A model generated the notes under the pieces. The model was given only the letters and a program-made list of their open reading frames with translations. It ran no database searches and was not told the DNA's origin. A DNA stretch of 64,000 nt from Bacteroidota bacterium (GTDB lineage Bacteria; Bacteroidota; Bacteroidia; B-17B0; Aurantibacillaceae), in assembly GCA_018267825.1 (NCBI GenBank), contig JAFDXR010000010.1:1-64000 (forward strand). Direction: 5' to 3'. Shown here piece by piece: positions 24,817 to 50,639 of this stretch; position 1 is the stretch's first letter, and every line of letters begins with the position of its first letter. Made by a program: the position numbers and the translations under genes.

Positions 24817-24841
24817 AATTAGAAATATGTATCTTTATTTC

Positions 24842-25906: not shown

Positions 25907-26037
25907 TTGGCTCAACTGAAAATTGAAGAAGCCTCTAAAACATTGATTATTAATACCCATCAAATAAAAGGCTAAAAACCTGACAATCATTCGGTTAAAA
26001 TGCTTATATTTCCCTTTTAAAAAAGAGTAAATTTTGT

Positions 26038-28918: not shown

Positions 28919-28919
28919 A

Positions 28920-32149: not shown

Positions 32150-32151
32150 TT

Positions 32152-34597: not shown

Positions 34598-34623
34598 TTA
34601 GACACAATTAGATATAGAGAGAC

Positions 34624-35180: not shown

Positions 35181-35181
35181 C

Positions 35182-35213
35182 GGAAAGTGCCAGTTTTTGT
35201 TGCCACACCTTTG
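35182..35213 (+). promoter_or_regulatory. element-specific promoter P1
   Basis: GGAAAG (35182-35187) and CACCTTTG (35206-35213) are separated by 18 bases. The same arrangement recurs at 36083-36114. It ends about 50 bases before the start of the 182-residue gene and directly follows the phased repeats. Confidence 0.6.
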
Positions 35214-35263
35214 TATCGTCAATCACGACAACACAAAAAAGTAATCAATAAAAACTAAATAAA

Positions 35264-35812
35264 ATGTCAGCAGTAAAAAAAATCAAAACAGCAGCCCCTT
35301 ATTTAAGAGTAATTAAAGGAGGTAAATCAAATCCATTAAACAACATCGTAGATAACACATGGATATTTATTCATGCAGCATTGTGGTGCAATAATGAGTT
35401 CTCCGGAAAAGAAGAAGCACAATTTCAGAACTTAATTGCAGAACATTATAATACGCATAAAAATCCGACAAAGGTTTTTGAAGAGATCATCGAGCGTGTG
35501 TGTCTCGCAAAACGCTATGTAAGTCGTAAGCGTGGACGTTATCTTTCAAAACCAATTGATTGGTTAAATCTACATTACCACAAAGGTTTAACAGGCACAG
35601 AAGGTTGGTATCAAGAGGTGTGTCTACAACGCATAACAGTTCCTGAATACAATAAAGGAATAACTCTTCTTGCAAAAGCGATCACCAAATACTTACAAGA
35701 ACCAACCATCAAAACGATTGTAACATATCGTAAAAAGTTAATTGCAGAAAGGCAGTTCGACCTTCTACAAATATTCAACAACAGTATTATCAATTTTCAA
35801 ATCAACAATTAA
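35264..35812 (+). CDS. 182-residue phage-operon early protein
   Basis: No family recognised. The N-terminus is basic (MSAVKKIKTAAPYLRVIKGG) and the body helical with several arginine-lysine clusters (VSRKRGRYLSK), suggesting nucleic-acid contact. It follows the phased repeats and promoter P1 after an A-rich leader of about 50 bases, so it is probably the first gene of this transcript, and is followed by the second small HTH gene after three bases. A replication or regulatory role is inferred from position only. Confidence 0.65.
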   Translation: MSAVKKIKTAAPYLRVIKGGKSNPLNNIVDNTWIFIHAALWCNNEFSGKEEAQFQNLIAEHYNTHKNPTKVFEEIIERVCLAKRYVSRKRGRYLSKPIDWLNLHYHKGLTGTEGWYQEVCLQRITVPEYNKGITLLAKAITKYLQEPTIKTIVTYRKKLIAERQFDLLQIFNNSIINFQINN

Positions 35813-35815
35813 GTA

Positions 35816-36025
35816 ATGGAGAATTCAGAAAAAGTAACAATAGAACTAAAGCCTTACCTGACAAAAGAACTAATCAAATTCTATCAGGTAACCTACCCAA
35901 CATTCGCTAAATGGATGAAAGGTATTGAGGATAAAGTTGGAAAAAGAGTCGGAGCATATTGGTCTGTTAAGCAAGTCGAAATAATATTTAAGGAATTAGG
36001 TATGCCAAAGACCTATTCTTTTTAA
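35816..36025 (+). CDS. small helix-turn-helix protein, paralogue 2
   Basis: 69 residues: LTKELIKFYQVTYPTFAKWM aligns with the helix-turn-helix of the protein at 34624, and GIEDKVGKRVGAYWSVKQVE aligns with its second half. The two probably arose by duplication and may bind related sites as opposing regulators. Confidence 0.75.
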   Translation: MENSEKVTIELKPYLTKELIKFYQVTYPTFAKWMKGIEDKVGKRVGAYWSVKQVEIIFKELGMPKTYSF

Positions 36026-36082
36026 AGAAAATTAAAATGATTTAAAAAGATTAAAAGCCTTTCAAAAAAAATTTTCAAATCA

Positions 36083-36114
36083 GGAAAGCGACTCAGACAA
36101 GTGATTCACCTTTG
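36083..36114 (+). promoter_or_regulatory. element-specific promoter P2
   Basis: GGAAAG (36083-36088), an 18-base spacer and CACCTTTG (36107-36114) repeat the arrangement of P1. The A-rich leader of the first structural gene follows. Confidence 0.6.
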
Positions 36115-36154
36115 TGCCGTGATGGATGAACAACAACTAAAAAAAGAAAAACAG

Positions 36155-36349
36155 ATGTCAGAAATTAAACACAACCACCAAGCGCAAGATGGAACAGGAA
36201 GTATGCTCTTAACGGCAAGTATCCTTTTCGCAAACATCGATTACTCAGGACTCGCAGACTACGCAATAAAAGCTTTTGTAGGTGGTGCAATTTGGATGGC
36301 TTTTAAAGTAGGCGGAGAATATTTCAGCAACAAGATCAAGAAAAAGTAA
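36155..36349 (+). CDS. small single-pass membrane protein
   Basis: 64 residues from ATG 36155 (A-rich leader). An upstream in-frame ATG at 36122 lies only 7 bases after the -7-like box of P2, so it is disfavoured. Histidine-rich N-terminus, then a hydrophobic region (SMLLTASILFANIDYSGLADYAIKAFVGGAIWMAF) and a KIKKK tail. It opens the structural operon; a virion membrane or holin-like role is possible. Confidence 0.65.
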   Translation: MSEIKHNHQAQDGTGSMLLTASILFANIDYSGLADYAIKAFVGGAIWMAFKVGGEYFSNKIKKK

Positions 36350-36850
36350 ATGGCAAGCATTAAAAAAATACTGTTGAGTTTAGGCATAGGAGGAGGCTTG
36401 GTAGCAGGGGGAGCGTATCTGTGGAGATTGAATAAGACCTCGGTGAACCTGGAGATTGTTCCGACAGCGAAATTGCACAAAGTGGATTTGCAGGGTGTGG
36501 TTATCAGAGTAGATGTGCAATTGAAAAATCCAACCCGGACTGGATTAAAGCTGAAGTTCCCTTTTATTAAGCTCTTATCGAAAGGGAGCAGCATAGGAAG
36601 TTCGCAATCTGTCAATCAGGACATAGCACTTCCTGCATTCGGAGAGGCAAAGTTTGAAGCGATAATGTTACGCATTCCAATGTTCAGCCTCCTCTCTACT
36701 GCCAAAGATTTACTGCAAGCAGTAAAAAACGGTGAAGCTTTTCAGATCGGTGTAACGACCATGACAACAATTGACTTGGGTTGGAAAAAAGTTCCTTATG
36801 AAAAAACAGATGAAGTACAGTTAATCGGAGCAAAGAATGGAAGCAACTAA
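36350..36850 (+). CDS. membrane-anchored beta-rich protein (LEA-like domain)
   Basis: 166 residues. An N-terminal anchor rich in glycine (ILLSLGIGGGLVAGGAYLW) is followed by a beta-sandwich resembling LEA14/WHy domains (VDLQGVVIRVDVQLKNPTRTGLKLKFPFIKLL). It starts directly after the previous stop and overlaps the next gene by 14 bases. Similar glycine-rich single anchors occur in several other products of this operon, fitting proteins of an internal viral membrane. Confidence 0.68.
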   Translation: MASIKKILLSLGIGGGLVAGGAYLWRLNKTSVNLEIVPTAKLHKVDLQGVVIRVDVQLKNPTRTGLKLKFPFIKLLSKGSSIGSSQSVNQDIALPAFGEAKFEAIMLRIPMFSLLSTAKDLLQAVKNGEAFQIGVTTMTTIDLGWKKVPYEKTDEVQLIGAKNGSN

Positions 36851-38531
36851 AAAACGAAAGATAAAAAGCGGTGAAGAATATGACCACTTGTTTCCGAGGC
36901 CACTCTTCCTTGATCCAACAATCAAGAAGGGAGCAACGGTAACAGACACGGTGCGATTCATTCCGCAGGTAGTGCGAGAGACTTTGTTTCAAACTGCGAA
37001 GATTGCTCCGCTTCTGAAAGGAAAGAATGTGTACGAAACCTGCCGTAATATTTGGGAGTTTGTTTACCAACACATCGCATATAAAAAAGATGCTGATGGT
37101 CGTGAACAAATACGAAGTCCGGCAAGAGGATGGCACGACAGGCATCATGGAATAGACTGCGATTGTTATACGGTGTTTATCAGTAGCATATTGAGCAACT
37201 TAAAAATAAAGCACAAGCTACGAATCACAAAATACAGAGAGGATCACTTTCAGCATATCTATCCAATAGTGCCAACGGCAGGAGGAACTTACATCACGGT
37301 CGATTGTGTGGTAGACCGATTTAATTACGAAGAACCATACTCAGAAAAACAAGATACAAACATGGACTTAGAATATTTAAATGGCGTACCCAGCACAAAC
37401 AATGTAGATGTGCAAGACCTAATGGGTTGGGAAGAGTTAGAGGGAGGCGATTTGGGAAAAATTAAACTCTTCAAAAAAATGAGTCAGCCTCCCGGAGCAG
37501 ATAACAGCGGAAAGAAAGGTGGAAAATTAAAGAACCTTATTCATAAGGGGCTTCACTTGACCAATCGTGCAAACCCTGCGACAGCCCTTATTCGTGCAGG
37601 GGTATTAGTAAGCATGAAACTTAACCTATTCAAAGTTGCTTCACGATTAAAGTATTCATACTTGACAAATGAACAGGCGAAGCAAAAAGAAATTGACATG
37701 AGTAAGTTCGACCGCTTAATCAAAGTGCGTGAGAAACTTGAGAAGATTTTTTACGATGCCGGTGGTAAACCTGAAAATCTAAAGAAAGCAATCTTAACAG
37801 GTAAAGGAAACAAGAATCACGATGTAAGTGGATTAGGATATATCGTAGACGACATGAGTGGTTTGGATGAAGGTACTTCGACAAGCTTACTACTTGGAAA
37901 CGAAATGTATCACGATGAGAACTTCAACGGATTTGGAGAACTCGGTTCAGCTACAGCAGCAGCAGCTTCCATAACAGCAGCATCAGGAATCATCGGTGCA
38001 ATTGCAGGACTACTAAAAGGGATCGGAAACATTTTCCCAAAGAAAAACAAAGAAGGAAAAGACTTTGAAAATCCTGAATCACAAGCAGGAGATGGAACAT
38101 CGGCTGAAGAAGTATCTCAAGGAGCTACAAATGTAAAAATCACAAACAGCGACACAGGAGAATCGACAACAACCACAAGCAGTTCAGGAGGTGGTGGAGA
38201 ATCAGGTGGTGACGGAGGAGGAAGCGGAGATAATTCAAAAGCGATGATGCGAACAGCGAATACTTCCGACAGCACATCCGACAGCGGCTCAGGATCAGGT
38301 GGAGATAAGCCTGCCGGATTTTGGGAGAAAAATAAAAAGTGGTTGAAACCAACTGCCATCGGAGTAACAGGAATTGGATTGCTTTTCCTTGGATACAAAA
38401 TGATGAACAAACCAAAACCACCTGCACCCACTCCTGCTGTCTCAGGACAATTGAAAGGTTTAACAAAACGAAGGAAAAAAAGGAAAGGAGGAAACAAAGG
38501 AAAGAAGAAGCAAGCAGTAGCATATATGTAA
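36837..38531 (+). CDS. transglutaminase-like cysteine peptidase fold protein
   Basis: 564 residues. The N-terminal 180 residues match the transglutaminase-like fold: GIDCDCYTVF carries the cysteine near 106, HFQHIYPIV the histidine near 139 and YITVDCVVD the aspartate. A hydrophobic alanine/glycine segment lies near 380-400, a serine/glycine linker at 430-480 and one membrane segment near 515-535, then a strongly basic tail. It may process virion proteins or act on the cell envelope at entry. Family members appear in phage structural clusters. The catalytic triad looks intact, but substrate is unknown. Confidence 0.72.
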   Translation: MEATKKRKIKSGEEYDHLFPRPLFLDPTIKKGATVTDTVRFIPQVVRETLFQTAKIAPLLKGKNVYETCRNIWEFVYQHIAYKKDADGREQIRSPARGWHDRHHGIDCDCYTVFISSILSNLKIKHKLRITKYREDHFQHIYPIVPTAGGTYITVDCVVDRFNYEEPYSEKQDTNMDLEYLNGVPSTNNVDVQDLMGWEELEGGDLGKIKLFKKMSQPPGADNSGKKGGKLKNLIHKGLHLTNRANPATALIRAGVLVSMKLNLFKVASRLKYSYLTNEQAKQKEIDMSKFDRLIKVREKLEKIFYDAGGKPENLKKAILTGKGNKNHDVSGLGYIVDDMSGLDEGTSTSLLLGNEMYHDENFNGFGELGSATAAAASITAASGIIGAIAGLLKGIGNIFPKKNKEGKDFENPESQAGDGTSAEEVSQGATNVKITNSDTGESTTTTSSSGGGGESGGDGGGSGDNSKAMMRTANTSDSTSDSGSGSGGDKPAGFWEKNKKWLKPTAIGVTGIGLLFLGYKMMNKPKPPAPTPAVSGQLKGLTKRRKKRKGGNKGKKKQAVAYM

Positions 38532-38558
38532 AAGAACAAACGAATAAAAAGAAAGAAA

Positions 38559-39188
38559 ATGGCAAAAAGTAAAAACAGTTATCAGAAAGCAGCACTTAGA
38601 AAAGAACTTAACGGTACAGCTGAAGGAAGCACCGGAGAGAAAGTAAAAGATGCGGCCACCGAATTAGGAAAGGACATTGTGGTTGGCGTAATCGGAGGAG
38701 GCGTTGCAGGAGCTGTGTTGGGAAGATTGTCGTTCGTGGTTGGAGCAGCAGTTACAGGAGTTGGTCACTACGCTAAAAACAGACTCGCATCAGCTCTTGG
38801 TGTTGGGATGATGGCTTCGGGAACATATCAAGCCATGTCCGGAATGAACGGCAAGCCTGCATCGGGGTTGAATGGTGTAAAGGAGCGATTACTCGCATTC
38901 AAAGACGATATGAAAAAACGAATCTTCCTTGACAAAGTTTTGAAGGCAAAGGAAAAGAAAGAAGAAAAAACTGATGAGGGTACAAATGGTCTCGGTCAAG
39001 TGCAATACTTCGTCTATCCGAATTCCGAAGAGTCAATGGGAGCCTTGGACATGAGCGAACTGGACAAAATCCAAAAGCAAATCCAAAACAGCGCAATGAA
39101 CTTTAATCAAGTTAACGGAGTCGAAGACGACCTGTTGAACGGTGAAGAAGAAGTAGGTACAGTAGATGCCTCAGATAAAATCTACTAA
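38559..39188 (+). CDS. glycine-zipper membrane protein
   Basis: 209 residues. The region IVVGVIGGGVAGAVLGRLSFVVGAAVTGVG (split here at residues about 40-70) is a glycine-zipper membrane segment, followed by an amphipathic helix and an acidic tail rich in DE. No family recognised. It lies immediately before the probable capsid gene and is a candidate virion membrane protein. Confidence 0.65.
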   Translation: MAKSKNSYQKAALRKELNGTAEGSTGEKVKDAATELGKDIVVGVIGGGVAGAVLGRLSFVVGAAVTGVGHYAKNRLASALGVGMMASGTYQAMSGMNGKPASGLNGVKERLLAFKDDMKKRIFLDKVLKAKEKKEEKTDEGTNGLGQVQYFVYPNSEESMGALDMSELDKIQKQIQNSAMNFNQVNGVEDDLLNGEEEVGTVDASDKIY

Positions 39189-39244
39189 ACAAAATCAAAC
39201 ATCCATCACACAAAAAATAAGTTAAACAATTAAAAACAAAAAGT

Positions 39245-39964
39245 ATGTTAGAAATTTTAGACGGTACAGAAGAGTACAACAATGCCGGAGCGTTATTGGG
39301 ATTAGATGGCGCAGAAGGAGAAGAACTGTTGGGCGCACTCCGCAGAATGAACCCTGTGGCTCGTCAACGTGCGATCAATAAATTGGCGAGTCCAGGAGCA
39401 GCGAGCAAAGGTTCTCGTGCAGAAATGGAGAAGCACTTCCGTGAGTTGCCACCTCACATTAAATCAGCGTTGGCAAAGGGAGATTTGCGTTTAGCGGATA
39501 CAATCATCTACTCCATCAAACCTGTGAATTCAAAAACAATCAAGTTATTTGAGACACAGGATGTGAAAGAAGTTGGTTTGCGTAACATCAGCAACGCCAA
39601 GTTGCCAAAGAACCAAGCTCTGTTGGTAAGCGGAATCTTTTTGTTGGCATCGATTCCTGCGGATAACACCACAGACAAAATCATCGGTTCAAAATTCGTT
39701 CAATTGGAAGATTTCCCTGCAATCGCAAACGGTGAATTCAGTTTGAAAGCAAACAAGAAGATCATCGTTCCGGAAACAAGCATCGCTGCATTCAAAACGC
39801 AGAATATGCACGCACTTCCGTTGGGATATTTCAAGTTGGCAAACCCACGTTTGATTCACGATGATATCTTGGTTGAGTTTACTGTGGAGTTAGGCTCAAT
39901 GGAAGGTCTTGATCCAAAAACCCAACTGTATGTTGGATTACACGGAACTATCACTACTCCTTAA
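39245..39964 (+). CDS. probable major capsid protein
   Basis: 239 residues. The first 85 residues are helical (LGALRRMNPVARQRAINKL), the rest is beta-rich (ALLVSGIFLLASIPAD, LIHDDILVEFTVELG) with a jelly-roll-like strand pattern. It has a 56-base A-rich leader and is followed by a perfect hairpin terminator that lies inside an otherwise continuous operon, an arrangement expected for a highly produced structural protein. No HK97-type signature is visible. The capsid call is an inference from context; fold (single or double jelly roll) must be tested by structure prediction. Confidence 0.5.
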   Translation: MLEILDGTEEYNNAGALLGLDGAEGEELLGALRRMNPVARQRAINKLASPGAASKGSRAEMEKHFRELPPHIKSALAKGDLRLADTIIYSIKPVNSKTIKLFETQDVKEVGLRNISNAKLPKNQALLVSGIFLLASIPADNTTDKIIGSKFVQLEDFPAIANGEFSLKANKKIIVPETSIAAFKTQNMHALPLGYFKLANPRLIHDDILVEFTVELGSMEGLDPKTQLYVGLHGTITTP

Positions 39965-39977
39965 TCATTAACCTAAT

Positions 39978-40003
39978 GCCGGGAGATTACTCTCCCGGCT
40001 TTT
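39978..40003 (+). terminator. internal terminator after the capsid candidate
   Basis: GCCGGGAGA and TCTCCCGGC form a perfect nine-base-pair stem with a TTAC loop, followed by TTTTAAAA. Partial termination here would raise the dose of the upstream gene. Confidence 0.85.
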
Positions 40004-40015
40004 AAAAACAATACC

Positions 40016-40399
40016 ATGTTAAAAGCAGTAAAGAAAAGATTTGACATAAAAATAACTCAGGCAAACTCCACCGTGAGCGACACTTTTGAGTTAGAGAAGA
40101 ACATTGTGAAAGTGCATGGTGTGTTGGTTACATCAGATAAGGACGATTTACTCTATTACAGAGGAACACAAAAAATTGAGATCAACAAAGAAGAGTTTTT
40201 TCCGGACAACTATGAAAGCAAATTGTTGATGTCAGGAATTAACGTAACACCAAAACAACGCTACTACGATATTGGCGGTGTTGCACCGGGTAACGGCAGA
40301 GTTCAATTAACCTACAAGGACTTGGACGATGGCAGAACGGTGTTTACCCCATACAGAGTGAGTTTGTATCTCGATTGCGAAATGGAGGATGAGTTATGA
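40016..40399 (+). CDS. small beta-rich structural protein candidate
   Basis: 127 residues dominated by short strands (KRFDIKITQANSTVSDTF, YRVSLYLDCEMED). No family recognised. It overlaps the next gene by four bases. Similar overall pattern to the following 181-residue protein suggests both are minor capsid or vertex proteins. Confidence 0.6.
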   Translation: MLKAVKKRFDIKITQANSTVSDTFELEKNIVKVHGVLVTSDKDDLLYYRGTQKIEINKEEFFPDNYESKLLMSGINVTPKQRYYDIGGVAPGNGRVQLTYKDLDDGRTVFTPYRVSLYLDCEMEDEL

Positions 40400-40941
40400 T
40401 GAAAGAGCAAGTGATAATAACCAAGGTAAATATAAAGCTTCAGGGGGAACGGAAGCACTTCCAAATAAAATTGCCTAAAGACACCAAGTATATTATCGGT
40501 GTAGAGTACGGTGGAAGATTGCTTACCAAATCGGATGGGCCTGTTGTTCAACCTGCACCCAAAGAAGCACCAAAGGTAGAAGCAATACAGGATGTTCTTG
40601 TGCATTTGGTGGCTACAAGTAGTGGTAAGGAATCGAGAACGCTGTTCAAAAGAAACCAATTGATTGGCGAGTTGAAATTGCAAAGTTGTGAAGAAGCAAA
40701 TTGGTTTTATGCAGCGGATGTATTTGCAAACGATGCAAACCTTGACTACGCAGATTATTCAAAGTCAGGATTCCCGATTAATGATTTTACGCACGGCAAT
40801 AAAAAAACTGAAGAGATCGTGAAGGTGGATGCCGAGTCAACAATCATTCAAGGATGGTACTTAGATGCTCTTGGTAAATCTCAAAAAATGGACATCCAGT
40901 ACGAAGTAACGGTTTATGTATGGATTAATGTGGAGGAATAA
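40396..40941 (+). CDS. beta-rich structural protein candidate
   Basis: 181 residues. Strand-rich N- and C-termini (VIITKVNIKLQGERKHFQI; YEVTVYVWINVEE) around a proline/valine linker. Shares the strand-dominated look of the preceding 127-residue product. No known domain; minor capsid or vertex protein is a guess from position after the capsid candidate. Confidence 0.58.
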   Translation: MMKEQVIITKVNIKLQGERKHFQIKLPKDTKYIIGVEYGGRLLTKSDGPVVQPAPKEAPKVEAIQDVLVHLVATSSGKESRTLFKRNQLIGELKLQSCEEANWFYAADVFANDANLDYADYSKSGFPINDFTHGNKKTEEIVKVDAESTIIQGWYLDALGKSQKMDIQYEVTVYVWINVEE

Positions 40942-40944
40942 AAA

Positions 40945-41277
40945 ATGACAATAAACCTTGCCTTAGAATACATCCCACGCAGGATGCAGGAATTGGGATA
41001 CAAGCAGGATTACTATATCCGATTCCGTCACTTGGTTTTACAACCAAATGAAGAACAAACCATTGATGCATTCAATCAGTTCTATTACCTCGTTGAAGAG
41101 GCCGAAAACGTGAGAGTGGAAAGTGAAACGGGAATTTTCGACCTGAGCGAAAAGAACGCAAATGAAATGCAGTATGAGCATCAAAGCAAAATACAGATCA
41201 CTAATTATTTATCCGGTATTAATCACTTGCGATTCATCCAAGTAATACCAAAACACAAAATCAAAAAAGAAAAGTAA
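40945..41277 (+). CDS. 110-residue structural protein candidate
   Basis: Begins MTINLALEYIPRRMQELGY and continues with strands (YYIRFRHLVLQPNEEQTI). No family recognised. Overlaps the next gene by one base in the structural operon. Confidence 0.55.
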   Translation: MTINLALEYIPRRMQELGYKQDYYIRFRHLVLQPNEEQTIDAFNQFYYLVEEAENVRVESETGIFDLSEKNANEMQYEHQSKIQITNYLSGINHLRFIQVIPKHKIKKEK

Positions 41278-42149
41278 TGCAACATACCAATCCATACAAT
41301 GACGTGAAACTGTCGCAATTTAAAATGTGGCTTCACGACATGAACGACAAAGGCGAAGGGAAATATTTTGAGGTGTATGTGGACGATGTAAAAGTTGTAC
41401 CGAGAACAAACAGAATAGAGTCTCTTGATGACCACAAGGTGTATCTCGATGATACCACCGAGACAGTAAAGGTATTCACTTATAATACCGAGAACTCTAA
41501 TCGCTATCAACAGTTCACTTTCTACATGGAAAAGAAAAAGAACAGTGAATTGCCGATACAAACGCAAACACCAATTCAACAAGGGCTTTCCGGTATTGAG
41601 TTGGAAAACAAAATAAACGAGCGTTTGATGCAGACATTGTCTGTTGAAAGAGAACGATGGCAAACGGATCTCCTTAAGAGAGATTACGAAACCTGCAAGA
41701 AGAAGCTCACAGAAGCGGAGGATTACATTGATGAGTTAGAGGAAAAACTCAATGTGTACAAAAGTAAGAAGTTACACTTGGGTGATGTGAATCTTGGAGA
41801 AGTAGCTTCCATCATTGTTGAAGGGATGGTAAAACGTAATCCGCATTGGGTTGCTAAACTTCCGGGTGGTGATGCGCTTGCTGGCTTGATTGCTAAAGAA
41901 GCAACAGAAGATGGTAAAGCCGAGGTAATTGAAAGTGAAGTGGTCTTCAAAAAGAAAAGTCCGAGTGAAGAAGGAATGAGCGAAGAAGTGAAAGCACAAC
42001 TTGGTTTCTTAAAGCAACTTGAGACACACTTTACACAGGAGCAACTTGATAAAATCATGAACATTTTACAAGCCTTTGTAGAAGAGCCGAAACACATCGA
42101 AACAGTATTTGACCTTTTAGAAATTAAAAAAGAAGATGAAAAAGTTTAG
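41277..42149 (+). CDS. coiled-coil structural protein
   Basis: 290 residues. An N-terminal beta-rich domain (about 1-90) is followed by a charged coiled coil (about 108-165: RERWQTDLLKRDYETCKKKL, YIDELEEKLNVY) and a helical C-terminus. This is the layout of a trimeric fibre or spike, or of a scaffold protein. No family recognised. Overlaps the 60-residue gene by 14 bases. Confidence 0.62.
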   Translation: MQHTNPYNDVKLSQFKMWLHDMNDKGEGKYFEVYVDDVKVVPRTNRIESLDDHKVYLDDTTETVKVFTYNTENSNRYQQFTFYMEKKKNSELPIQTQTPIQQGLSGIELENKINERLMQTLSVERERWQTDLLKRDYETCKKKLTEAEDYIDELEEKLNVYKSKKLHLGDVNLGEVASIIVEGMVKRNPHWVAKLPGGDALAGLIAKEATEDGKAEVIESEVVFKKKSPSEEGMSEEVKAQLGFLKQLETHFTQEQLDKIMNILQAFVEEPKHIETVFDLLEIKKEDEKV

Positions 42150-42318
42150 TTACGAAATAACCATCGAAGCGGCTACTGAAGCAGAAGCCGACTCAAAAAT
42201 GAAAGCGTTAACAACGATAGCAAAGAAGCTTAACACGAAAGAGATTGTGAAGTTGGCTGACATCGTTCAAAACGATCCAGTAAAAACTGCATTAGCAAAA
42301 AAAGCATTAGGAGTTTAA
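42136..42318 (+). CDS. 60-residue helical protein
   Basis: Sequence MKKFSYEITIEAATEAEADS then helices rich in alanine and lysine. No family recognised. Placed between the coiled-coil protein and the annexin-like protein, one base before the latter. Confidence 0.55.
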   Translation: MKKFSYEITIEAATEAEADSKMKALTTIAKKLNTKEIVKLADIVQNDPVKTALAKKALGV

Positions 42319-42319
42319 G

Positions 42320-42997: not shown

Positions 42998-43611
42998 TGG
43001 AAAAGACAACACACAACAAAAGAAAAACGATCCTGATTGGACTGAGCGTATTAGGAACTGGAGTCGCAGGTTTCTTGGGATGGAACTATTGGAGAAATAA
43101 GAAAAAAGCAAATCAGGAAAGTGCAGATGCACCGACTGAGTCAGCAAGTTTCAATATTCCAACAACAAGGAACGATGATTTTCCTCTAAAAAGAGGAAGT
43201 AAAGGAAACCGAGTAAGTCAACTTCAAAATGCACTGGTGAAGAAGTACGGTGCGAGCATACTGCCTAAATATGGTGTGGATGGAATGTTCGGAAAAGAAG
43301 TGGAAGCAGCTTTAGTGAGGGCTAAACTACCAACCACTATTAACGAGACAACCTACAACACTTTTGTTGGCGGACAAGGCTTTGCCGGATTAATAAAACA
43401 TGGTGAAGAAGTCGTTTCAATTGAAGAATGTGAAATCTACAAGGTGAAGGGAAAACTGACCATGAAGATACCAAAGCACATCATTCTTGGAGTGAAGGAG
43501 TTTACTCATCAAGGTTGGATTTATTTCATTCCTAAAAACAGTACGGAACTATTCAGGGTGAGAAAAGAGAAAGTGAAATCCTTTAAAGAATTTAAAAATG
43601 AAAAATCTTAG
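42997..43611 (+). CDS. membrane protein with peptidoglycan-binding domain
   Basis: 204 residues. A single anchor (KTILIGLSVLGTGVAGFLGW) is followed by a PG_binding_1 domain: LKRGSKGNRVSQLQNALVKKY and GVDGMFGKEVEAAL at about 65-110. The remainder may be an SH3-like fold. It should tether a virion or cell membrane to peptidoglycan, or guide a lysin. It precedes the amidase gene with 14 bases of overlap. Confidence 0.8.
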   Translation: MEKTTHNKRKTILIGLSVLGTGVAGFLGWNYWRNKKKANQESADAPTESASFNIPTTRNDDFPLKRGSKGNRVSQLQNALVKKYGASILPKYGVDGMFGKEVEAALVRAKLPTTINETTYNTFVGGQGFAGLIKHGEEVVSIEECEIYKVKGKLTMKIPKHIILGVKEFTHQGWIYFIPKNSTELFRVRKEKVKSFKEFKNEKS

Positions 43612-44044
43612 AAACATTAAATATATCGTGGTGCATTGCACCGCTACTCCACCTACCACAACTGTAGAGTCTATCAAACGCTACTGGAAAGAGCAACGTG
43701 GTTGGGGAGATACTCCCGGCTATCATTACTTGATCCAACGCCAAGGTAATATCCTTCAGTTGTTGGATGAGAGTAAGAATAGTAACGGTGTTTATGCTCA
43801 CAACTCTAACTGCATCAACATTGCCTACATCGGTGGCGTTGACAAGGACAACAAGCAGGTAGACAACAGAAGCGATGCACAAAAGCATTCCATGTTTGAT
43901 TTGATAGTTTCTCTGACAGAGAAGTATCCTCAAGCACAGGTGTTGGGACATCGCGATTTCCCTGATGTGCATAAAGCTTGCCCAAGCTTTGATGTAAAGA
44001 AGTGGTTGAGTGAGTATGAACCCGATTTAGGAAATGCCACATAA
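43598..44044 (+). CDS. N-acetylmuramoyl-L-alanine amidase
   Basis: 148 residues of the Amidase_2/PGRP fold. KYIVVHCTATPP holds the first zinc histidine, PGYHYLIQRQGNILQL is the conserved second motif, and VLGHRDFPDVHKACPSFDV supplies the second histidine and cysteine ligands. It cleaves the amide between N-acetylmuramic acid and L-alanine, releasing phage or aiding entry. Overlaps the next gene by one base. Confidence 0.92.
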   Translation: MKNLRNIKYIVVHCTATPPTTTVESIKRYWKEQRGWGDTPGYHYLIQRQGNILQLLDESKNSNGVYAHNSNCINIAYIGGVDKDNKQVDNRSDAQKHSMFDLIVSLTEKYPQAQVLGHRDFPDVHKACPSFDVKKWLSEYEPDLGNAT

Positions 44045-44727
44045 TGTTGCTATCGAAGATCAAAGGAATTCTACGAAGCAAAGGATATGAAATCTACACC
44101 AAACCAAATCAATTAAATATAGTCGGGATTAGGTCAACAAGTACCATCCCCAACAAGTTTGATGATGAGATTCATGTCTTTTACAAAGTAGCCCCCTTAA
44201 AGTGGTTTTATCATGTCTACAAGGCAACGACCGATCCAGGTACATTTTGGTTGCGTAATCCTATGCAACCTCAAGGTACTGCCATCTTAGCACAAGGTCA
44301 ATACAAAGGAGCGTACAGAATTGGCTTGCATCAGGGAAAGTACAAAGCATTGGTTCAGGCAAAACCAATCACTGTAATACGAGATTACGACAGAGATGCA
44401 AAGCTTGATTTCAGGAACGGATCTAAAAGCAAAGGAATGTATGGCATCAACATACACCGGGCAAGTTTGAATGGTGTGACCAAACAAGTGGACAAATACT
44501 CCGCAGGTTGTCAGGTATTCGCAGACATCAGAGACTTTAACGAGTTCATGAGTCTTTGTGAAAAACACAGTTCGCTATACGGTAACAGTTTTACATACAC
44601 CCTGATTGATTTCAGGGCTGTAAAGCGACAAACCTTTAAGCGTTGGGCGATAGGAACTGTGTCTGTGGCATTGGGATTAACTGCCTTATGGGGAATTCTA
44701 AAAAGGAAAAAGAAAAAACACAAATGA
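44044..44727 (+). CDS. YkuD-like cell-wall enzyme candidate with C-terminal anchor
   Basis: 227 residues. GINIHRASLNG and, 14 residues later, KYSAGCQVFADIRDF resemble the H...SxGC active-site layout of L,D-transpeptidase/YkuD-like phage proteins. One membrane segment near the C-terminus (GTVSVALGLTALWGIL) is followed by a lysine-rich tail. Its place after the amidase supports a peptidoglycan role. The family call is tentative, and no signal peptide is seen. Confidence 0.6.
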   Translation: MLLSKIKGILRSKGYEIYTKPNQLNIVGIRSTSTIPNKFDDEIHVFYKVAPLKWFYHVYKATTDPGTFWLRNPMQPQGTAILAQGQYKGAYRIGLHQGKYKALVQAKPITVIRDYDRDAKLDFRNGSKSKGMYGINIHRASLNGVTKQVDKYSAGCQVFADIRDFNEFMSLCEKHSSLYGNSFTYTLIDFRAVKRQTFKRWAIGTVSVALGLTALWGILKRKKKKHK

Positions 44728-44948
44728 AAAATCAATTCATAACAGCTTTAGCACAATTGCTAAAAGACAAAAACGGAAACCACAGCTTGCGTGAAGTAGT
44801 CACAGTCTTGTTCGTGATTGTGCTTCTTGTGAGTTGGATTGCGGATCAGTTCTTTGAAATTAAAATGCCCGAACATATGTTTTATGGCTTCATCAGCCTT
44901 GTAGGAGCGGGTTGCTTCGGGTACTCTATTGAGAAAAAACAAGTGTAA
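44724..44948 (+). CDS. holin-like membrane protein
   Basis: 74 residues from ATG 44724 (ATGA overlap with the previous stop). Two hydrophobic segments (VVTVLFVIVLLVSWIAD; MFYGFISLVGAGCFGYSI) and a charged tail. Size, topology and position next to the amidase fit a holin. Confidence 0.68.
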   Translation: MKNQFITALAQLLKDKNGNHSLREVVTVLFVIVLLVSWIADQFFEIKMPEHMFYGFISLVGAGCFGYSIEKKQV

Positions 44949-44967
44949 AATTTAAAAACGAATAAAT

Positions 44968-45573
44968 ATGAAACAGATATTCTCTGCCTTTGTCATAGGC
45001 ATCATCGTTTGCTTCTTCGCAGTAAAGAGTTGCGAGGACAAACCAAAACAGGTAAATGTAAAAGAAATCAAAAAGGAGATTACCAACTCCGGCAATTTAG
45101 CGGAAACGCTTCAGCGCAATTTTCAAAAAGCGAAGCAAGAGTTCAATAAGGTTGCCGATTCTTTGAAAACTGAAAACCAAAAGTTGAATGTAAAACTACA
45201 GGTAACCCGTGCATTGCTTAAGAAACAGCAAACGCTTGTAACAAGCAATATTCCTTGTGACACATTACGAAAGGAAGTTGTTGTGCTGAATGAATTAAGC
45301 AATGAGCAGGATAGCTTGTGCAGTTTAAACATTAGTTCTCTCAATCAGGCAGTCGCAATCCGGGATTCGCAAATTGTAATGTGCAATAGGACTTACCAAT
45401 CCATGTACGATCTACAAAAAGAGAATCAGCAAAGGCAAATGCAATTAGCCGAAGACTTGAAGACAGCTTTAAAAGCAAACAGAAAGAAGCGTTTTGAAAA
45501 TAAAATGCTCACCTGCGGCCTAATGATAATGACAGGAATAACTACAACTCTATTTATAAAATCACAGCAATAA
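44968..45573 (+). CDS. spanin-like coiled-coil protein
   Basis: 201 residues. One N-terminal membrane or lipoprotein-type signal (FSAFVIGIIVCFFAVKSC), then a long heptad-rich helix (RNFQKAKQEFNKVADSLKTE) and a final hydrophobic stretch. The layout matches an inner-membrane spanin or Rz-like protein of a lysis cassette. No family assigned. Confidence 0.6.
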   Translation: MKQIFSAFVIGIIVCFFAVKSCEDKPKQVNVKEIKKEITNSGNLAETLQRNFQKAKQEFNKVADSLKTENQKLNVKLQVTRALLKKQQTLVTSNIPCDTLRKEVVVLNELSNEQDSLCSLNISSLNQAVAIRDSQIVMCNRTYQSMYDLQKENQQRQMQLAEDLKTALKANRKKRFENKMLTCGLMIMTGITTTLFIKSQQ

Positions 45574-45575
45574 GA

Positions 45576-45749
45576 ATGAAAGAAAAAACCATCGTTTCAA
45601 CCACCACACTTGCAGCTTCTCTTTTGATGTACTTCTATGCTAAAACAGCACAGAAAGATGCAGCTCCCTATGTGATGATTGGTGGTTTCATGGGAGCAAT
45701 AATCGGAGAGAGCATTGTTGAATTTATTAATAAAAACAAAAAAGACTAA
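45576..45749 (+). CDS. 57-residue membrane protein
   Basis: Two short hydrophobic segments (STTTLAASLLMYFYA; YVMIGGFMGAIIGESIV) and a lysine-rich end. It fits between the spanin-like gene and the next gene with two-base gaps on both sides. It is a second holin/antiholin or virion membrane candidate. Confidence 0.6.
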   Translation: MKEKTIVSTTTLAASLLMYFYAKTAQKDAAPYVMIGGFMGAIIGESIVEFINKNKKD

Positions 45750-45751
45750 TT

Positions 45752-46309
45752 ATGGCAACGACTATTGAAAATAACGGAGCAAGTTTAAAGATCACAGAAA
45801 ACGGAGCATCACGTTTCGTGTTGAAGTATCAAATTAGAGAGGTGGAAATCGTCAGAGATACCATTATCAAAATTGATATCGGGCAAGGCGCATTGAATAA
45901 CATCTTTCTCGATCAGGCGGATGTTACAACACCTGCAACAGCAACTGTTGAGGAGTTAAGAGACCAAATCATTAATATGCTTCAAACTAACGTAGTAGGA
46001 ACTGCGACTGAAGCAAAACAAATTGAGGAGATCGGAGAAATCAAAAACCTTCAGGCAGTTGTAGGAAACCTGCAAGCCAAAGTAAACTCATTAGATGACA
46101 AGACATTCTTCCAACCTAAATTGGTAGATGAGAGCAACGCTAATGTTGTTTACAATGGATTTGCCGTTCCGGGTTCTGCTGTTGACGCTCCGGTATGGGC
46201 GATTCAAAAAGTAACCAAGACAAACGGAGTTTACTCTTACCAATGGGCAGGAGGCAACAGAAACTTCGATAAAGTGTGGAACAACAGAAAAGCCCTTATC
46301 TACAGCTAA
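45752..46309 (+). CDS. putative spike or receptor-binding protein
   Basis: 185 residues. Strand-rich N-terminus, a central coiled coil (EIKNLQAVVGNLQAKVNSLDD near 107-127) and a glycine/aromatic C-terminus (WAIQKVTKTNGVYSYQWAGG). This resembles small trimeric appendage proteins. No family recognised; call is structural inference. Confidence 0.5.
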   Translation: MATTIENNGASLKITENGASRFVLKYQIREVEIVRDTIIKIDIGQGALNNIFLDQADVTTPATATVEELRDQIINMLQTNVVGTATEAKQIEEIGEIKNLQAVVGNLQAKVNSLDDKTFFQPKLVDESNANVVYNGFAVPGSAVDAPVWAIQKVTKTNGVYSYQWAGGNRNFDKVWNNRKALIYS

Positions 46310-46312
46310 AAA

Positions 46313-47602
46313 ATGAAAAGGGAAATCTCTCTGTTAGATTTATTCAGCGGTACAGGAGGCTTCGCAAGAGGCCTCCTTGCCTCTGGATTTATCATTAAGA
46401 ACCACGCCTTCTCGGAAATAGACAAATACTCAGTTGCGAACTATCAATACAATTTTAGAAATGCGAAGAACCTCGGTGACATCACAAAAATCAAAGGGAA
46501 TAAAATCCCAAGACCAAACATCATCACGTTTGGTTCACCATGCCAGGATATTTCCATTGCTGGAAAATTCAAAGGGCTCAAAGGCAAAAGAAGCGGACTC
46601 TTTTTTGAGGCAATTAGAATCATTAACGAGTGCAGACCCGATGTTTTTGTCTTTGAAAATGTCAAAGGACTTTTCTCCAGTAACAAAGGGAAAGACTTTG
46701 AGGTCGTACTTCAAACGATTGCCAACCTTGGGCTTTATGAGTGCCAATGGCAACTGCTTAATACTTGCTGGTTTTTACCCCAAAATAGAGAGCGGATATA
46801 CCTTGTCGGATATCTTAGAGGAACACCCCGACAACAAATATTTCCTATCGGAGAAATCAGTCAAGGGAATAATGAGATCAATCAAAAAACATCTGAAGGG
46901 AAAAAGGTAAGTCCGACTATTGATACAAAGGTTGGAGAAAGTTCTCATCGTTCACCTTATGTTTTGCATTGGAAAAACTCCACCGATAAATGGGTAAATG
47001 AGCAAATGGATAAAAGCCCTGCAATTAAAACGCAGAGCGATTATACAAGACAACCATTAATCGTAAGTGGAGCCGCATATAGAACAAGAAACTACAAAGG
47101 GCAAGAGGGAAAAATTGAGTTAAGGAAAGACAAAATTGCTAATCAGCTAACAACCGTTCAAAAGGACAGCATGGTAATGTTCCATGTACCGGAAGCAACA
47201 AAGAAAGGATACGCTACTGCCAAAGAGGGTGACAGTATCAATTTATCTTTTCTTGAAGCGAACAAAAGAAGAGGAAGAGTCGGAAAAGGAATTGCCAATA
47301 CACTCGATACAGGAGTACAACAATATACACTTGGCAAAGGATCACTTAGAAGATTAACTCCTGTTGAATGTGAGCGGTTACAGGGCTTTCCTGATAACTG
47401 GACAAGGTATGGTCTGTTTGATGGCGAGGTAATCGAAATATCCGATTCACAGCGATATAAAATGTTAGGCAATGCTGTGAGTGTACCTGTAGTGAAAGAG
47501 ATAGGCAAACGGATGATTGGCGAGCAATCAACTAAACAAGAATCAGATCTATGGATTCTTGAAATGGAACTCGAATTAATGAATTTGAAAAGAGCAGCTT
47601 AA
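46313..47602 (+). CDS. phage-type C5 cytosine DNA methyltransferase
   Basis: 429 residues. Motif I LLDLFSGTGGFARGL, motif IV GSPCQDISIAGK with the catalytic cysteine near 76, motif VI FVFENVKGLF and a C-terminal LTPVECERLQGFPDNW ... MLGNAVSVPVV region are intact. The arrangement is that of orphan phage methyltransferases, and the gene is embedded in the phage-like operon with no nuclease neighbour. It probably protects the element's DNA from restriction. It overlaps the adenine methyltransferase start by one base. Confidence 0.92.
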   Translation: MKREISLLDLFSGTGGFARGLLASGFIIKNHAFSEIDKYSVANYQYNFRNAKNLGDITKIKGNKIPRPNIITFGSPCQDISIAGKFKGLKGKRSGLFFEAIRIINECRPDVFVFENVKGLFSSNKGKDFEVVLQTIANLGLYECQWQLLNTCWFLPQNRERIYLVGYLRGTPRQQIFPIGEISQGNNEINQKTSEGKKVSPTIDTKVGESSHRSPYVLHWKNSTDKWVNEQMDKSPAIKTQSDYTRQPLIVSGAAYRTRNYKGQEGKIELRKDKIANQLTTVQKDSMVMFHVPEATKKGYATAKEGDSINLSFLEANKRRGRVGKGIANTLDTGVQQYTLGKGSLRRLTPVECERLQGFPDNWTRYGLFDGEVIEISDSQRYKMLGNAVSVPVVKEIGKRMIGEQSTKQESDLWILEMELELMNLKRAA

Positions 47603-48474
47603 TGAAAACACCAATAACATACTACGGAGGGAAACAAACCCTTTTAAAATATTTGCTTCCATTGATTCCGCAACACCGACTTTATTGCGAACCATTCTTT
47701 GGTGGTGGTGCGGTATTCTTTGCCAAGCCAAAATCAGAGGTGGAAGTAATTAACGACATCAATGGAGAGATAGTAAACTTCTTTAAGGTATTAAAATCGA
47801 AATTTCCTGAACTGCAAAGAGAAATTAAAGCAACGCTTCATAGCAGAGAATTGTACAAAAAAGCAATGGTTGTTTATGACCATCCGGATTTATTTACGGA
47901 TGTGAAGCGTGCATGGGCATTGTGGGTTCTTACCAATCAAGGCTTCGCAGGGATGATAGGTTCGTGGGGTTTTGGAAAGGATGATTCAAAAGAAGCAGCA
48001 CTCGCCAATAAAAGAGATGCGTTTACAAAAGAATACGAAGACAGACTTGCCAAGGTGCAAGTAGAAAATAATAATGCAATCAAAGTAATACAAAGATGCG
48101 ATGAGAAAGAAACATTTATCTATGCCGACCCTCCGTACATTGGTTCGGATCAGGGTCATTATAAGGGTTATTCGGAAAACGATTACAGAGAACTACTCGA
48201 TGCGTTGGCCAAGGTGAAAGGAAAATTTTTGCTGAGTTCTTATCCCTCAAAAATTTTAAACACCTACATCAAAAAATACAAATGGAAAGTGCAAAAGGTG
48301 ACAAAGAATGTTGCCGTTACAAAACATACCGATAAAGTTAAAACGGAAATGATCGTGATGAATTATGATCCAAGCAAAGCAAGATCGTTCATGCACAGCT
48401 TGAATCCAAAGGATAAGAAGGAACTGCAAAATTTAACCAAACAATTAACCCGATTAAAATTTACTACAAAATGA
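47602..48474 (+). CDS. D12-class adenine DNA methyltransferase (Dam-like)
   Basis: 290 residues. N-terminal TYYGGKQTLLKYL (SAM site), CEPFFGGGAVFF and the catalytic ADPPY near 175 identify the D12/Dam family of N6-adenine methyltransferases. Recognition site not predictable. The stop overlaps the start of the large ATPase gene by four bases (ATGA). Together with the C5 enzyme it could give the element a double methylation shield. Confidence 0.92.
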   Translation: MKTPITYYGGKQTLLKYLLPLIPQHRLYCEPFFGGGAVFFAKPKSEVEVINDINGEIVNFFKVLKSKFPELQREIKATLHSRELYKKAMVVYDHPDLFTDVKRAWALWVLTNQGFAGMIGSWGFGKDDSKEAALANKRDAFTKEYEDRLAKVQVENNNAIKVIQRCDEKETFIYADPPYIGSDQGHYKGYSENDYRELLDALAKVKGKFLLSSYPSKILNTYIKKYKWKVQKVTKNVAVTKHTDKVKTEMIVMNYDPSKARSFMHSLNPKDKKELQNLTKQLTRLKFTTK

Positions 48475-50639
48475 AAATAACGACCAAGAACTATTTTAAA
48501 GCCATTAGTGAGGTTGGATTTGATAATCTGCCGGAAGTGCTAAAAAAATCTCACTTGGTTATTCAGGAGAAAACCAACAATGGAAATGACTGGGGGCTTT
48601 ATGATAACGACCCCGAAGTAAAAAGAGTGTTTGATTTAGCGTTTGAAAAACTCTATGAGTTTATTGACAGAAAGGACAATCTCGCAGGACTCGATGGAAA
48701 TCCATTAATTGAACGTGCCAAAAAAGATGCAGCAGGATATAAAGACCTACCGCTTGATAAATTAAAAATGATTTACCGATTGGAACAGGATGCTGAATTA
48801 GAAGATGGTTTAACTCCTGAAATAAAAATCAGAAAAGCAGCTTTAGAGAAAGCAATAGCTTCAAAAGAAGGTAAGCCAAAGGGCAACTTGGGAATGGCTA
48901 AAAATAAATACTCTGAAATATCTCAGGAGATAAAATTCATTTTACGTTACCTTGACTTCCATGATAAAGTCCTATACAAAAATACTATCGGGCTATTTAT
49001 TGATGATTTGCAAAACGCAATCACTGAAAAGAAGATCACAAAAAAATCTCCTGTTGCAAAGGAAATAATGGAGATGCAGGATTCTGCACTAAAGGCTTTC
49101 AATTCTATGCGGAATGCGAAGCACATAATGCTTCGAACTGAGACTATAAAAAAGTTAAAGGCTATCATTGAAAAATACGAGAACGCTTACGATGACATTG
49201 ATGAGCAGTATGCAAAGTCAAAGAAGGAAAAGAAGAATTTGAATGGCTTGGGGAATACGCCTGTGAACATCATGTCGAGTAAGGACTTTACAAATCTTAA
49301 ATTCAATACTCTTGGTTTTGAGGGCAAGTGGCTTGAGTTTATTGGTGATCCTGCTCCCGGCTTTACTGCAATGGTTTTTGGAATGCCTAAAATGGGCAAG
49401 AGTTATTTATGCGTTGACTTTGCAGGATACTTAGCTCGTAATCATGGCAAGGTGTTGTACGTTGCTAAAGAAGAGAAATTGGACGCAACACTTCAAAAGA
49501 AATTGAAGGACAAAGATGTTGCACATGAAAACTTATTTGTTTCAGATGCGCTTCCATCGGATCTGTCCGCTTACGATTTTATCTTCCTGGACTCCGTAAA
49601 TAAAATCGGCCTTACACCTAAAGATTTGGAAAAGCTAAAGGCTGACAACAAAGGCAAATCATTTATTTACATTTTTCAAGCGACCAAAGGCGGAAAGTTC
49701 AAAGGCAATAATGAATTTCAACATGATGTTGATGTTGTGATTGAAATCCCGGAACAAGGAAAAGCAGCGCAGTATGGACGTTTTAATCAGGGCGGAGAGT
49801 TAAACATTTTTGGAGATTCTTCCATTAGCGAGGCAGAAGAGTTAAATGGTGTCAGAAAAAGCAGAAAGAACTTGGACGATAAAAAGAAAGTATCGAACGT
49901 AGACACTATGAAAAAGAAAACTGCAAACACCGAAGATTGGACTGAGCCTGAACACTTGGATAAACAAGACCACGCTGTCCTAAAGGAAATCAATCGCTTG
50001 TATAAGGCTAAAAAGTACAAGGAGGCAATGAATCGTGCTATGGATGCCGACACTATCATTAGAGAAGAGATACCACCTGAAATTTGGAAGAAGATGGGTG
50101 GTCAGCTTACAAAAACTGGTGAGGATAGACTGCGAGAACGACAGGGAAAAGCTGGTGCACATTCGGCTCAGGAATCCAAGCAAAAATCAAGGCTTGTTTT
50201 TAATGGAACAGTACGAATTTTAAAAGGAGTTATTGAAAGAGAGTGGGATTTAGAACTTACTGATGCGGAGTACATTGAAATTTTGGAAATCGCTGAAGAC
50301 AGAAGCGTAAACTTTACAGAAGCGGTTAACGAAATGAACCCGAATTTAAACGCCTTCCTGATTCAGATGGCTGAAGCTTTGAAAATTTGGGATCAGGCAA
50401 ATTCTAAATCAGAACGAAAATCACGTGAGAAGTTTGATCCACGTTTCTACGAGAACAGACCTGATGACGATAACCCTTCTTATATCTTCAGTTTAACAAG
50501 TAACAAACTTTTATCTGAAGCAATTGAAGGAGACTTTGACTTGATTTATTTGGTGCGCCGGGAACTGGCAAACCGAGGACTTGATAGCAAGGGGAAATGG
50601 GTTGGTTTTGATGAGGCGAAGAGAATTCATAGAATTTGA
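48471..50639 (+). CDS. multi-domain RecA-like ATPase protein
   Basis: 722 residues. N-terminal about 270 residues are helical and charged. A RecA/KaiC-like ATPase core follows: Walker A GMPKMGKS near 304-311, KVLYVAKEEK, and the Walker B strand DFIFLDSVNKIG near 365. The C-terminus contains an RGLDSKGKWVGFDEAKRIH tail that recalls polyvalent-protein domains of Bacteroidota mobile elements. It may serve replication (DnaB-like) or genome packaging; no relaxase or terminase motif is seen. It is the last gene of the operon. Confidence 0.7.
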   Translation: MKITTKNYFKAISEVGFDNLPEVLKKSHLVIQEKTNNGNDWGLYDNDPEVKRVFDLAFEKLYEFIDRKDNLAGLDGNPLIERAKKDAAGYKDLPLDKLKMIYRLEQDAELEDGLTPEIKIRKAALEKAIASKEGKPKGNLGMAKNKYSEISQEIKFILRYLDFHDKVLYKNTIGLFIDDLQNAITEKKITKKSPVAKEIMEMQDSALKAFNSMRNAKHIMLRTETIKKLKAIIEKYENAYDDIDEQYAKSKKEKKNLNGLGNTPVNIMSSKDFTNLKFNTLGFEGKWLEFIGDPAPGFTAMVFGMPKMGKSYLCVDFAGYLARNHGKVLYVAKEEKLDATLQKKLKDKDVAHENLFVSDALPSDLSAYDFIFLDSVNKIGLTPKDLEKLKADNKGKSFIYIFQATKGGKFKGNNEFQHDVDVVIEIPEQGKAAQYGRFNQGGELNIFGDSSISEAEELNGVRKSRKNLDDKKKVSNVDTMKKKTANTEDWTEPEHLDKQDHAVLKEINRLYKAKKYKEAMNRAMDADTIIREEIPPEIWKKMGGQLTKTGEDRLRERQGKAGAHSAQESKQKSRLVFNGTVRILKGVIEREWDLELTDAEYIEILEIAEDRSVNFTEAVNEMNPNLNAFLIQMAEALKIWDQANSKSERKSREKFDPRFYENRPDDDNPSYIFSLTSNKLLSEAIEGDFDLIYLVRRELANRGLDSKGKWVGFDEAKRIHRI

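Follow-up and report, generated by a model that had tools for sequence, protein, structure and literature searches.

Gene content and limits of the element

The stretch of Bacteroidota DNA analyzed here, 64,000 nt in length and referred to as the window, contains a complete integrated element of about 35.0 kb at 17643-52604, whose features are listed in Table 1. The operon recognized in the first-pass annotation is real, but the extent given to it was too short: it runs from 33563 to 50639 and is itself only part of the element. The insertion site is the 3' end of a tRNA-Phe gene, beside the element's own serine integrase, and the ends were fixed by means of right-end homology with C32, L008 and L009, which stops exactly at attR. 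The integrase matched Pfam PF00239 (1.2e-27) and the PHROG 95 integrase family (1.8e-71), and an end with a serine recombinase at a tRNA gene was also found in six other elements. A tyrosine recombinase fragment at 52806 was rejected as the integrase because it lies outside attR. The source genome has three copies of the lineage, two of which were mapped, each at a different tRNA. Tandem insertion was considered for neighboring copies 37-60 kb apart and dropped, since unrelated, host-like genes lie between the two G028 copies.

The defence cargo sits between the integrase and the candidate repressor. PADLOC identified MTase_II (2.6e-72), MzaB (2.1e-5) and MzaC (5.8e-29) in this cluster, and a homologous cluster was found beside the second G028 element. 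No replication gene was recognized in the element, which counts against the interpretation preferred below.

Table 1. Features of the integrated element and its insertion site (proteins are named by their lower coordinate)
Feature	Position	Strand	Basis or remark
Host tRNA-Phe	17569..17642	+	ARAGORN; 3' end is attB
attL core GGTACCAC	17635-17642	within tRNA-Phe 3' end	core also at right end
Serine integrase (Resolvase, Recombinase, Zn ribbon)	17575..19212	-	3' end overlaps tRNA-Phe
Cargo, Mza-like defence cluster	24827..33449	+	RtcR-like AAA, C5 MTase, HATPase/MzaB-like, Z1/MzaC-like, others
Lysogeny repressor candidate, HTH and ImmA/IrrE metalloprotease domain	33563..34597	+	PHROG 2439 1e-82; Peptidase_M78 3.7e-19
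Small HTH-like proteins 34624 and 35816, unknown 35264	34624..36025	+	weak HTH matches; order conserved
Small protein 36101, LEA_2-like 36350	36101..36850	+	found in nearly all elements
Transglutaminase-like domain and membrane segment; homologous to gp34 of the SSIP-1 virion	36837..38531	+	hhalign
Gly-rich membrane protein directly before capsid gene	38559..39188	+	positional analogue of SSIP-1 gp44
Candidate major capsid protein, probable homologue of SSIP-1 gp45/gp46	39245..39964	+	hhalign, AF2/Foldseek
Predicted single jelly-roll protein, candidate for a minor/second capsid or vertex role	40016..40399	+	AF2, Foldseek
Beta-rich small proteins 40396 and 40945	40396..41277	+	conserved families A9, A7
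Coiled-coil protein	41277..42149	+	architectural analogue of SSIP-1 gp33
42136; N-anchored membrane proteins 42320 and 42997 (PG-binding-like)	42136..43611	+	TM segments
Lysis group: 43598 (amidase), 44044 (endolysin-related), 44724 (holin-like), 44968 (spanin-like), 45576	43598..45749	+
Conserved protein, role not assigned	45752..46309	+
C5 and Dam-type DNA methyltransferases	46313..48474	+	Pfam 8.2e-69 and 7e-28
RecA/RadA-type ATPase, homologous to gp40, the ATPase of the SSIP-1 virion	48471..50639	+	packaging ATPase candidate
attR core GGTACCAC	52597-52604	+	element right end

Membrane, lysis and candidate capsid proteins

The open reading frames of the first-pass annotation were present where it had placed them, among them the transglutaminase-like protein, the amidase and the coiled-coil protein (36837, 43598 and 41277). 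Its proposal of at least six membrane proteins in the operon was borne out by a hydropathy scan, which found strong TM segments in eight (36837, 38559, 42320, 42997, 44044, 44724, 44968 and 45576). Protein 36350 has a Gly-rich hydrophobic stretch at its N terminus and hit Pfam LEA_2 at 0.0046, below the cut-off; the DUF553 hit of 36837 (1.3e-3) also fell below its cut-off. The 42320 family occurs in nearly all elements, and 42997 matches a PHROG endolysin (1.6e-8). Within the lysis group, the amidase matched PHROG 822 at 1.4e-48, and PHROG 3000 was matched at 8.5e-37. A PHROG 'tail assembly' match of 38559 (8.5e-4) covered 61 residues of Gly-rich membrane sequence and was judged weak and spurious.

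In the annotation 39245 had been singled out as the capsid candidate, and it is kept as one, though it is only one of at least two small beta-rich candidates, and the clear predicted jelly-roll is 40016. The AF2 model of 40016 (pLDDT 83.7, pTM 0.78) has eight strands, and its Foldseek matches fall among jelly-roll folds, including the double-jelly-roll (DJR) capsid of PR772. Protein 39245 has a helical N terminus followed by about 155 residues, which leaves room for one barrel only. Its AF2 model, built on a ten-sequence alignment, is poor (pLDDT 49.6), and this counts against our interpretation. All sequences used for folding came from the window and from related loci. The best Foldseek matches obtained with it were viral jelly-roll capsid proteins, with EhV-201 at the top, a list that is only suggestive of a capsid role given the quality of the model; structure prediction thus did not point to a non-capsid protein. 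Profiles of the capsid candidate and the ATPase, when searched against PDB sequences, gave nothing useful.

The proteins of the operon and of the element ends were scanned against Pfam and PHROGs, and neither a terminase nor a portal, HK97 capsid or tail protein was detected. The absence of such genes proposed from the open reading frames is thereby upheld, including that of a terminase-portal pair, and the features of Caudoviricetes (large terminase, portal, HK97 capsid, tail) are lacking.

Relationship to SSIP-1 and other tailless viruses

SSIP-1 is a salt-lake phage that infects a member of the Bacteroidota and has an internal membrane but no tail; an orphan since 2012 and still unclassified, it is the sole isolate of its lineage. 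That lineage is usually placed with the single beta-barrel viruses that have two major capsid proteins, not with the DJR PRD1/PM2/FLiP group. Sequence comparison indicates that three proteins of the element are homologous to SSIP-1 virion proteins, namely gp40, gp34 and, less strongly, gp45/gp46; which SSIP-1 structural proteins are the major capsid proteins was taken from the record annotation, reviews and inference. The ATPase aligned with gp40 in hhalign with P 99.8 and E 6e-29 over 185 columns, and it also matches PHROG 6891 (2.4e-23), a family that covers gp40 end to end. For 36837 and gp34, both with TM segments, the values were P 99.6 and E 2.7e-24, and this match is far stronger than that of either protein to generic transglutaminase models.

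The match between 39245 and gp45/gp46 (P 66.8, E 5.3e-5) scored 38.7, against 12.5 +/- 2.1 (maximum 19.9) for shuffled controls, which places it 12 sd above column shuffles. Among all element families 39245 gave the best gp45/gp46 match, collinear across the beta domain. The register of the alignment was unchanged with gp45/gp46 alone or with prophage homologues alone, and the score fell to 21.6 with gp45/gp46 alone. We regard these data as moderate support for membership of 39245 in the gp45/gp46 capsid family, a weaker link than those of the ATPase and gp34.

The likeness extends to architecture. Both SSIP-1 and the element have a Gly-rich membrane protein directly before the capsid gene, a coiled-coil protein and single-anchor membrane proteins, and SSIP-1 measures 43.8 kb compared with 35.0 kb for this element and about 43.6 kb for its C32 copy. 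The order Gly-rich membrane protein, capsid, small beta proteins is found in the element, and SSIP-1-like elements of other Bacteroidota retain a membrane protein followed by the capsid and then the beta proteins; 40396 and 40945 are positional counterparts of gp47/gp48. No profile match was found between 38559 and gp44, or between 40396 or 40945 and gp47/gp48, and none that was significant between 41277 and gp33. In contrast to SSIP-1, which has two capsid-family genes, the element has one; it is integrated in a tRNA, its lysis and cargo genes differ, and detectable sharing is restricted to the three families. The giant methyltransferase-type gp43 of SSIP-1 is absent from the window, and the IMG/VR relatives G060 and G061 have ORFs of 1555-1580 aa in its place. 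With one isolate known, gp43 may or may not be a defining feature, so we claim membership only for a wider SSIP-1-like lineage.

Sphaerolipoviridae and Matsushitaviridae (SH1, P23-77; Singelaviria) are tailless, with an internal membrane and small single-barrel capsids, the morphotype proposed for SSIP-1. The 39245 and gp45/gp46 families had no sequence match to VP16/VP17 of P23-77 or VP4/VP7 of SH1. Singelaviria have two vertical single jelly-roll capsid proteins; in the element, 40016 is a predicted single jelly-roll, and the model of 39245 is of too low quality for such an assignment. The gp40 family profile matched the P23-77 packaging ATPase at P 93, while the 722-aa ATPase family itself reached P 51 over 27 columns only. 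The core of the ATPase is RecA/RadA-like, with a RadA-like match in the PDB, and inspection of stretches from several distant elements revealed no ATPase; both observations count against the interpretation preferred below, and a role in packaging is our inference. Hankyphage p00 and comparable Bacteroides phages are tailed; a weak ATPase match is all they share with the element, no other common genes having been found. The hankyphage is a transposable phage (PMC12135933).

Alternatives and significance

The operon order recurs in diverse Bacteroidota, being kept in over 20 elements whose capsid candidates share as little as 23% identity, and the genes are under purifying selection (dN/dS 0.02-0.2), so that the pattern is beyond chance. 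This bears on the possibility that the element is a tailed prophage in decay, with head and tail genes that have disappeared or diverged beyond detection. The lysis genes, like PHROG families 6891 and 3000, do occur in or near tailed phages, but an identical order lacking head-tail genes in all those elements, the failure of any profile to match such genes and the virion homologues in a tailless phage already contradict this explanation, which we consider highly improbable. A DJR virus of the PRD1/PM2/FLiP group, the kinship put forward in the first-pass annotation, would account for the many small membrane proteins, and membrane-bearing DJR phages are known to infect Flavobacterium (PMC9719478); PR772 and EhV-201 among the structural matches also favor it. 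FLiP (Finnlakeviridae) and PhiCjT23-like prophages resemble the element in being membrane-containing and tailless with Bacteroidota hosts, PhiCjT23 being temperate, but they are ssDNA viruses of 8-9 kb with a DJR capsid, a rolling-circle Rep and dif-site integration (PMC9719478). The structural and ATPase families gave only noise-level hits to all FLiP proteins (hmmsearch, hhalign), no FLiP-type replication protein was found, 39245 has space for a single barrel, and homology leads to SSIP-1; this kinship is quite unlikely.

It is also unlikely that the element is an integrative one that has retained virion-derived genes but lost the ability to form infectious particles, whether as a satellite, as a vesicle-forming element or as a defence island that makes use of viral genes. 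The big defence cargo and the absence of recognized replication genes fit that idea, as does the near lack of free viral contigs: the lineage was found in only two of the 2.9 million contigs of IMG/VR, which counts against a functional virus, and most viral-contig scans with distant capsid members gave nothing. Against it, no structural or lysis gene is broken and purifying selection acts on all of them. The element also encodes an integrase, a repressor and lysis proteins of its own, in which it differs from a minimal satellite, and a survey of this bacterial family that found the lineage in 32 of 87 genomes recovered 57 capsid-gene copies with no stops.

The element is best read as a complete, probably functional temperate prophage of a tailless lineage with SSIP-1 as its one known isolate, a conclusion supported by the three-protein homology and by the complete integrated element with att sites. 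This agrees with the initial suggestion of a tailless, probably membrane-containing prophage from a little-described Bacteroidota group, and we infer both particle formation and an internal membrane. The HTH-ImmA/IrrE protein would maintain lysogeny, and on induction the integrase would circularize the element. The 39245 product, the jelly-roll 40016 and the other beta-rich proteins might form an icosahedral shell above an internal membrane bearing the single-anchor proteins, with the RecA-like ATPase powering DNA packaging or entry, and the amidase, holin-like and spanin-like proteins would lyse the cell. The defence cluster and DNA methyltransferases would shield virus and host.

More broadly, these data likely represent a phylum-wide lineage, at family or order level, of Bacteroidota dsDNA viruses that are temperate, lack a tail, contain a membrane, integrate by serine recombinases into diverse tRNA genes, carry exchangeable defence islands and would have been missed by virus surveys because no known profile matches their capsid proteins. 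Bacteroidota genomes would then commonly harbor, almost without record, a lineage of which one isolate is known, and a sizeable share of the integrated viruses in some Bacteroidota would go nearly unseen in a major virus collection. Tailless prophages, like tailed ones, would carry defence islands. Placing SSIP-1 within a large prophage lineage provides families of capsid, ATPase and membrane proteins that can be aligned, and thereby opens its taxonomy, the fold of its capsid and its packaging mechanism to testing.

Ends and gene content of the element

Homology at the right end, shared by the window, the copy on contig C32 of the same genome and two related loci (L008 and L009), ceases exactly past GGTACCAC, at 52604. 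This 8-mer also terminates tRNA-Phe (17635-17642), and left-end homology with C32 starts beside it. The shared 8-mer and the breakpoints at both ends thus delimit an element of approximately 35.0 kb; the C32 copy is approximately 43.6 kb long. A serine recombinase ending at a tRNA gene was found in other elements too (tRNA-Arg for the C32 copy, tRNA-Leu for four elements and tRNA-Ala for one). The two arms (CCCCCACTTGGTACC and CCAAGTGGGGG) appear to be halves of an imperfect palindrome, as a serine-integrase attP should be, and what reads by eye as a hairpin terminator right of 52604 is consistent with a displaced tRNA terminator. Directly outside attR lies a truncated tyrosine recombinase, possibly the remnant of another element.

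The ORFs listed in the first-pass annotation were confirmed in place, as were its multiple membrane proteins, with strong transmembrane segments in eight operon proteins, and its lysis group of amidase, endolysin-related and membrane-anchored proteins. Terminase, portal, HK97 capsid and tail genes had been reported absent, and Pfam and PHROGs scans recovered none; one weak match of the Gly-rich membrane protein 38559 (proteins are named by start coordinate) to a 'tail assembly' PHROG (8.5e-4, 61 residues) was judged spurious. Membership tests, these scans included, did not place the element among tailed phages, nor did they bear out the FLiP-like identity proposed earlier. Comparison of capsid sequences with Singelaviria, a possible affiliation, gave no match.

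Features of the element and of related loci
Feature	Location	Remarks
Element	17643-52604	
Serine integrase	17575-19212	end falls within tRNA-Phe
Glycosyltransferase-radical-SAM fusion	22100-24403; C32:78550-80841	64% identity
Mza-like cluster	24827-33449	C5 methyltransferase, HATPase/MzaB-like, Z1/MzaC-like, RtcR-like AAA
Amidase	43598	match 1.4e-48
Endolysin-related protein	44044	match 8.5e-37
Anchored lysis-group proteins	44724, 44968	transmembrane segments
Truncated tyrosine recombinase	52806-53657	
Third copy in the genome	G000:C28:80198-80887	
Methyltransferase-ATPase ORFs	L037:15568-17604; L014:9173-11362	
gp40-type ATPase	L116 (MT837295):1835-2509	match 1.4e-16
Large ORFs	G060:18095-22762; G061:25254-29996	1555-1580 aa

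Relationship to Salisaeta phage SSIP-1

Two Salisaeta phage records among the weak tblastn matches of the window ATPase pointed to SSIP-1, an unclassified, circular dsDNA phage with an internal membrane, two capsid protein types and no tail. SSIP-1 gp40 is annotated both as an ATPase and as structural; its entire length matches PHROG 6891 (2.6e-79), and the window ATPase matches the same family (2.4e-23). Further SSIP-1-like elements were found among other Bacteroidota, mainly in one family, as were intermediates, making profile-profile tests possible. The ATPase family matched the gp40 family (P 99.8, E 6e-29), and the family of the transglutaminase-like membrane protein 36837 matched that of gp34 (P 99.6, E 2.7e-24), far exceeding the match of either protein to general transglutaminase models.

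For the capsid candidate 39245, the family profile was enlarged with a member from the relative G142. It matched the gp45/gp46 family collinearly across the beta domain (P 66.8, E 5.3e-5, score 38.7); 100 column shuffles scored 12.5 +/- 2.1 (maximum 19.9), reversed controls 11-12, and the best of 21 other families 21.1. Against the prophage homologues only the score was 33.7, and against gp45/46 only 21.6, with the register unchanged. By these profile scores the 39245 family is likely, short of proof, to be homologous to gp45/gp46. Searches with gp45 and gp46 return an identical set of seven homologues, suggesting that these two candidate MCPs are paralogues, in keeping with the report of two MCP types in SSIP-1. 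Counting the likely capsid homology, three proteins of the window element have homologues among SSIP-1 virion proteins.

The AF2 model of 39245 was poor (pLDDT 49.6). Its top Foldseek matches were viral jelly-roll capsids, namely EhV-201 (E 0.013), enteroviruses and bromoviruses, with furin-type matches interspersed. The neighbouring 40016 was well predicted as an eight-stranded sandwich (AF2 pLDDT 83.7, pTM 0.78). It matched jelly-roll-type folds of both viral and cellular origin, among them proteins of PR772, CCMV, BMV and KHP40, with no match to PDB structures at E <0.001. The modelled fold class is compatible with a role in the capsid or at a vertex but does not prove it.

A gp40-type ATPase is also encoded on an unannotated phage contig of 7.2 kb from human faeces, perhaps a small relative. 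In two IMG/VR relatives, large ORFs immediately upstream of the ATPase recall, by size and place, the giant methyltransferase gp43 near gp40 of SSIP-1.

Distribution, selection and cargo

Searches with 39245 and the ATPase showed that the module recurs across many Bacteroidota, with the gene order from repressor to ATPase kept. Of the 87 genomes from the host's family, 32 carried the capsid candidate (57 copies, none with internal stops); it was also present in 4 of 396 genomes of a phylum-wide sample and on two IMG/VR contigs. The window's genome carries three copies; the third, highly diverged but of the same lineage, has its own transglutaminase-like and ATPase genes. Comparison between copies gave dN/dS of 0.02-0.2 for nearly all genes, indicating that they are in use rather than decaying. 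In two relatives the sequences of the Dam-type methyltransferase and the ATPase read as a single fused ORF.

The integrase-to-repressor interval carries the Mza-like defence cluster as cargo. In the first element of the relative G028 this interval holds different genes, of restriction-like type, which suggests an exchangeable slot. A glycosyltransferase-radical-SAM fusion, also cargo, adjoins attL in the window and attR in C32; this arrangement would follow if cargo adjoined attP in a circular form.

Proposed life cycle

The integration site, ends, gene content, selection and the three SSIP-1 virion-protein homologies are the findings here, with homology likely for the capsid candidate. In the life cycle that we propose, the HTH-ImmA/IrrE protein would act as repressor, the integrase would circularise the element, the shell would enclose an internal membrane, the ATPase would power packaging or genome entry, and the amidase, holin and spanin-like proteins would lyse the cell. 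The packaging role is the least secure step, since the window ATPase has a RecA/RadA-like core, the literature gives gp40 as a packaging ATPase by prediction only (PMC4124505), and no ATPase was found for several distant elements within the stretches examined. The gp40 family matched the P23-77 packaging ATPase (P 93).

The literature searched, which leaves most subscription journals outside, held no link between SSIP-1 and Bacteroidota prophages. We regard the element as part of a branch of the SSIP-1 lineage that is temperate and integrates into tRNA genes, and that is much commoner than the lone isolate implied.
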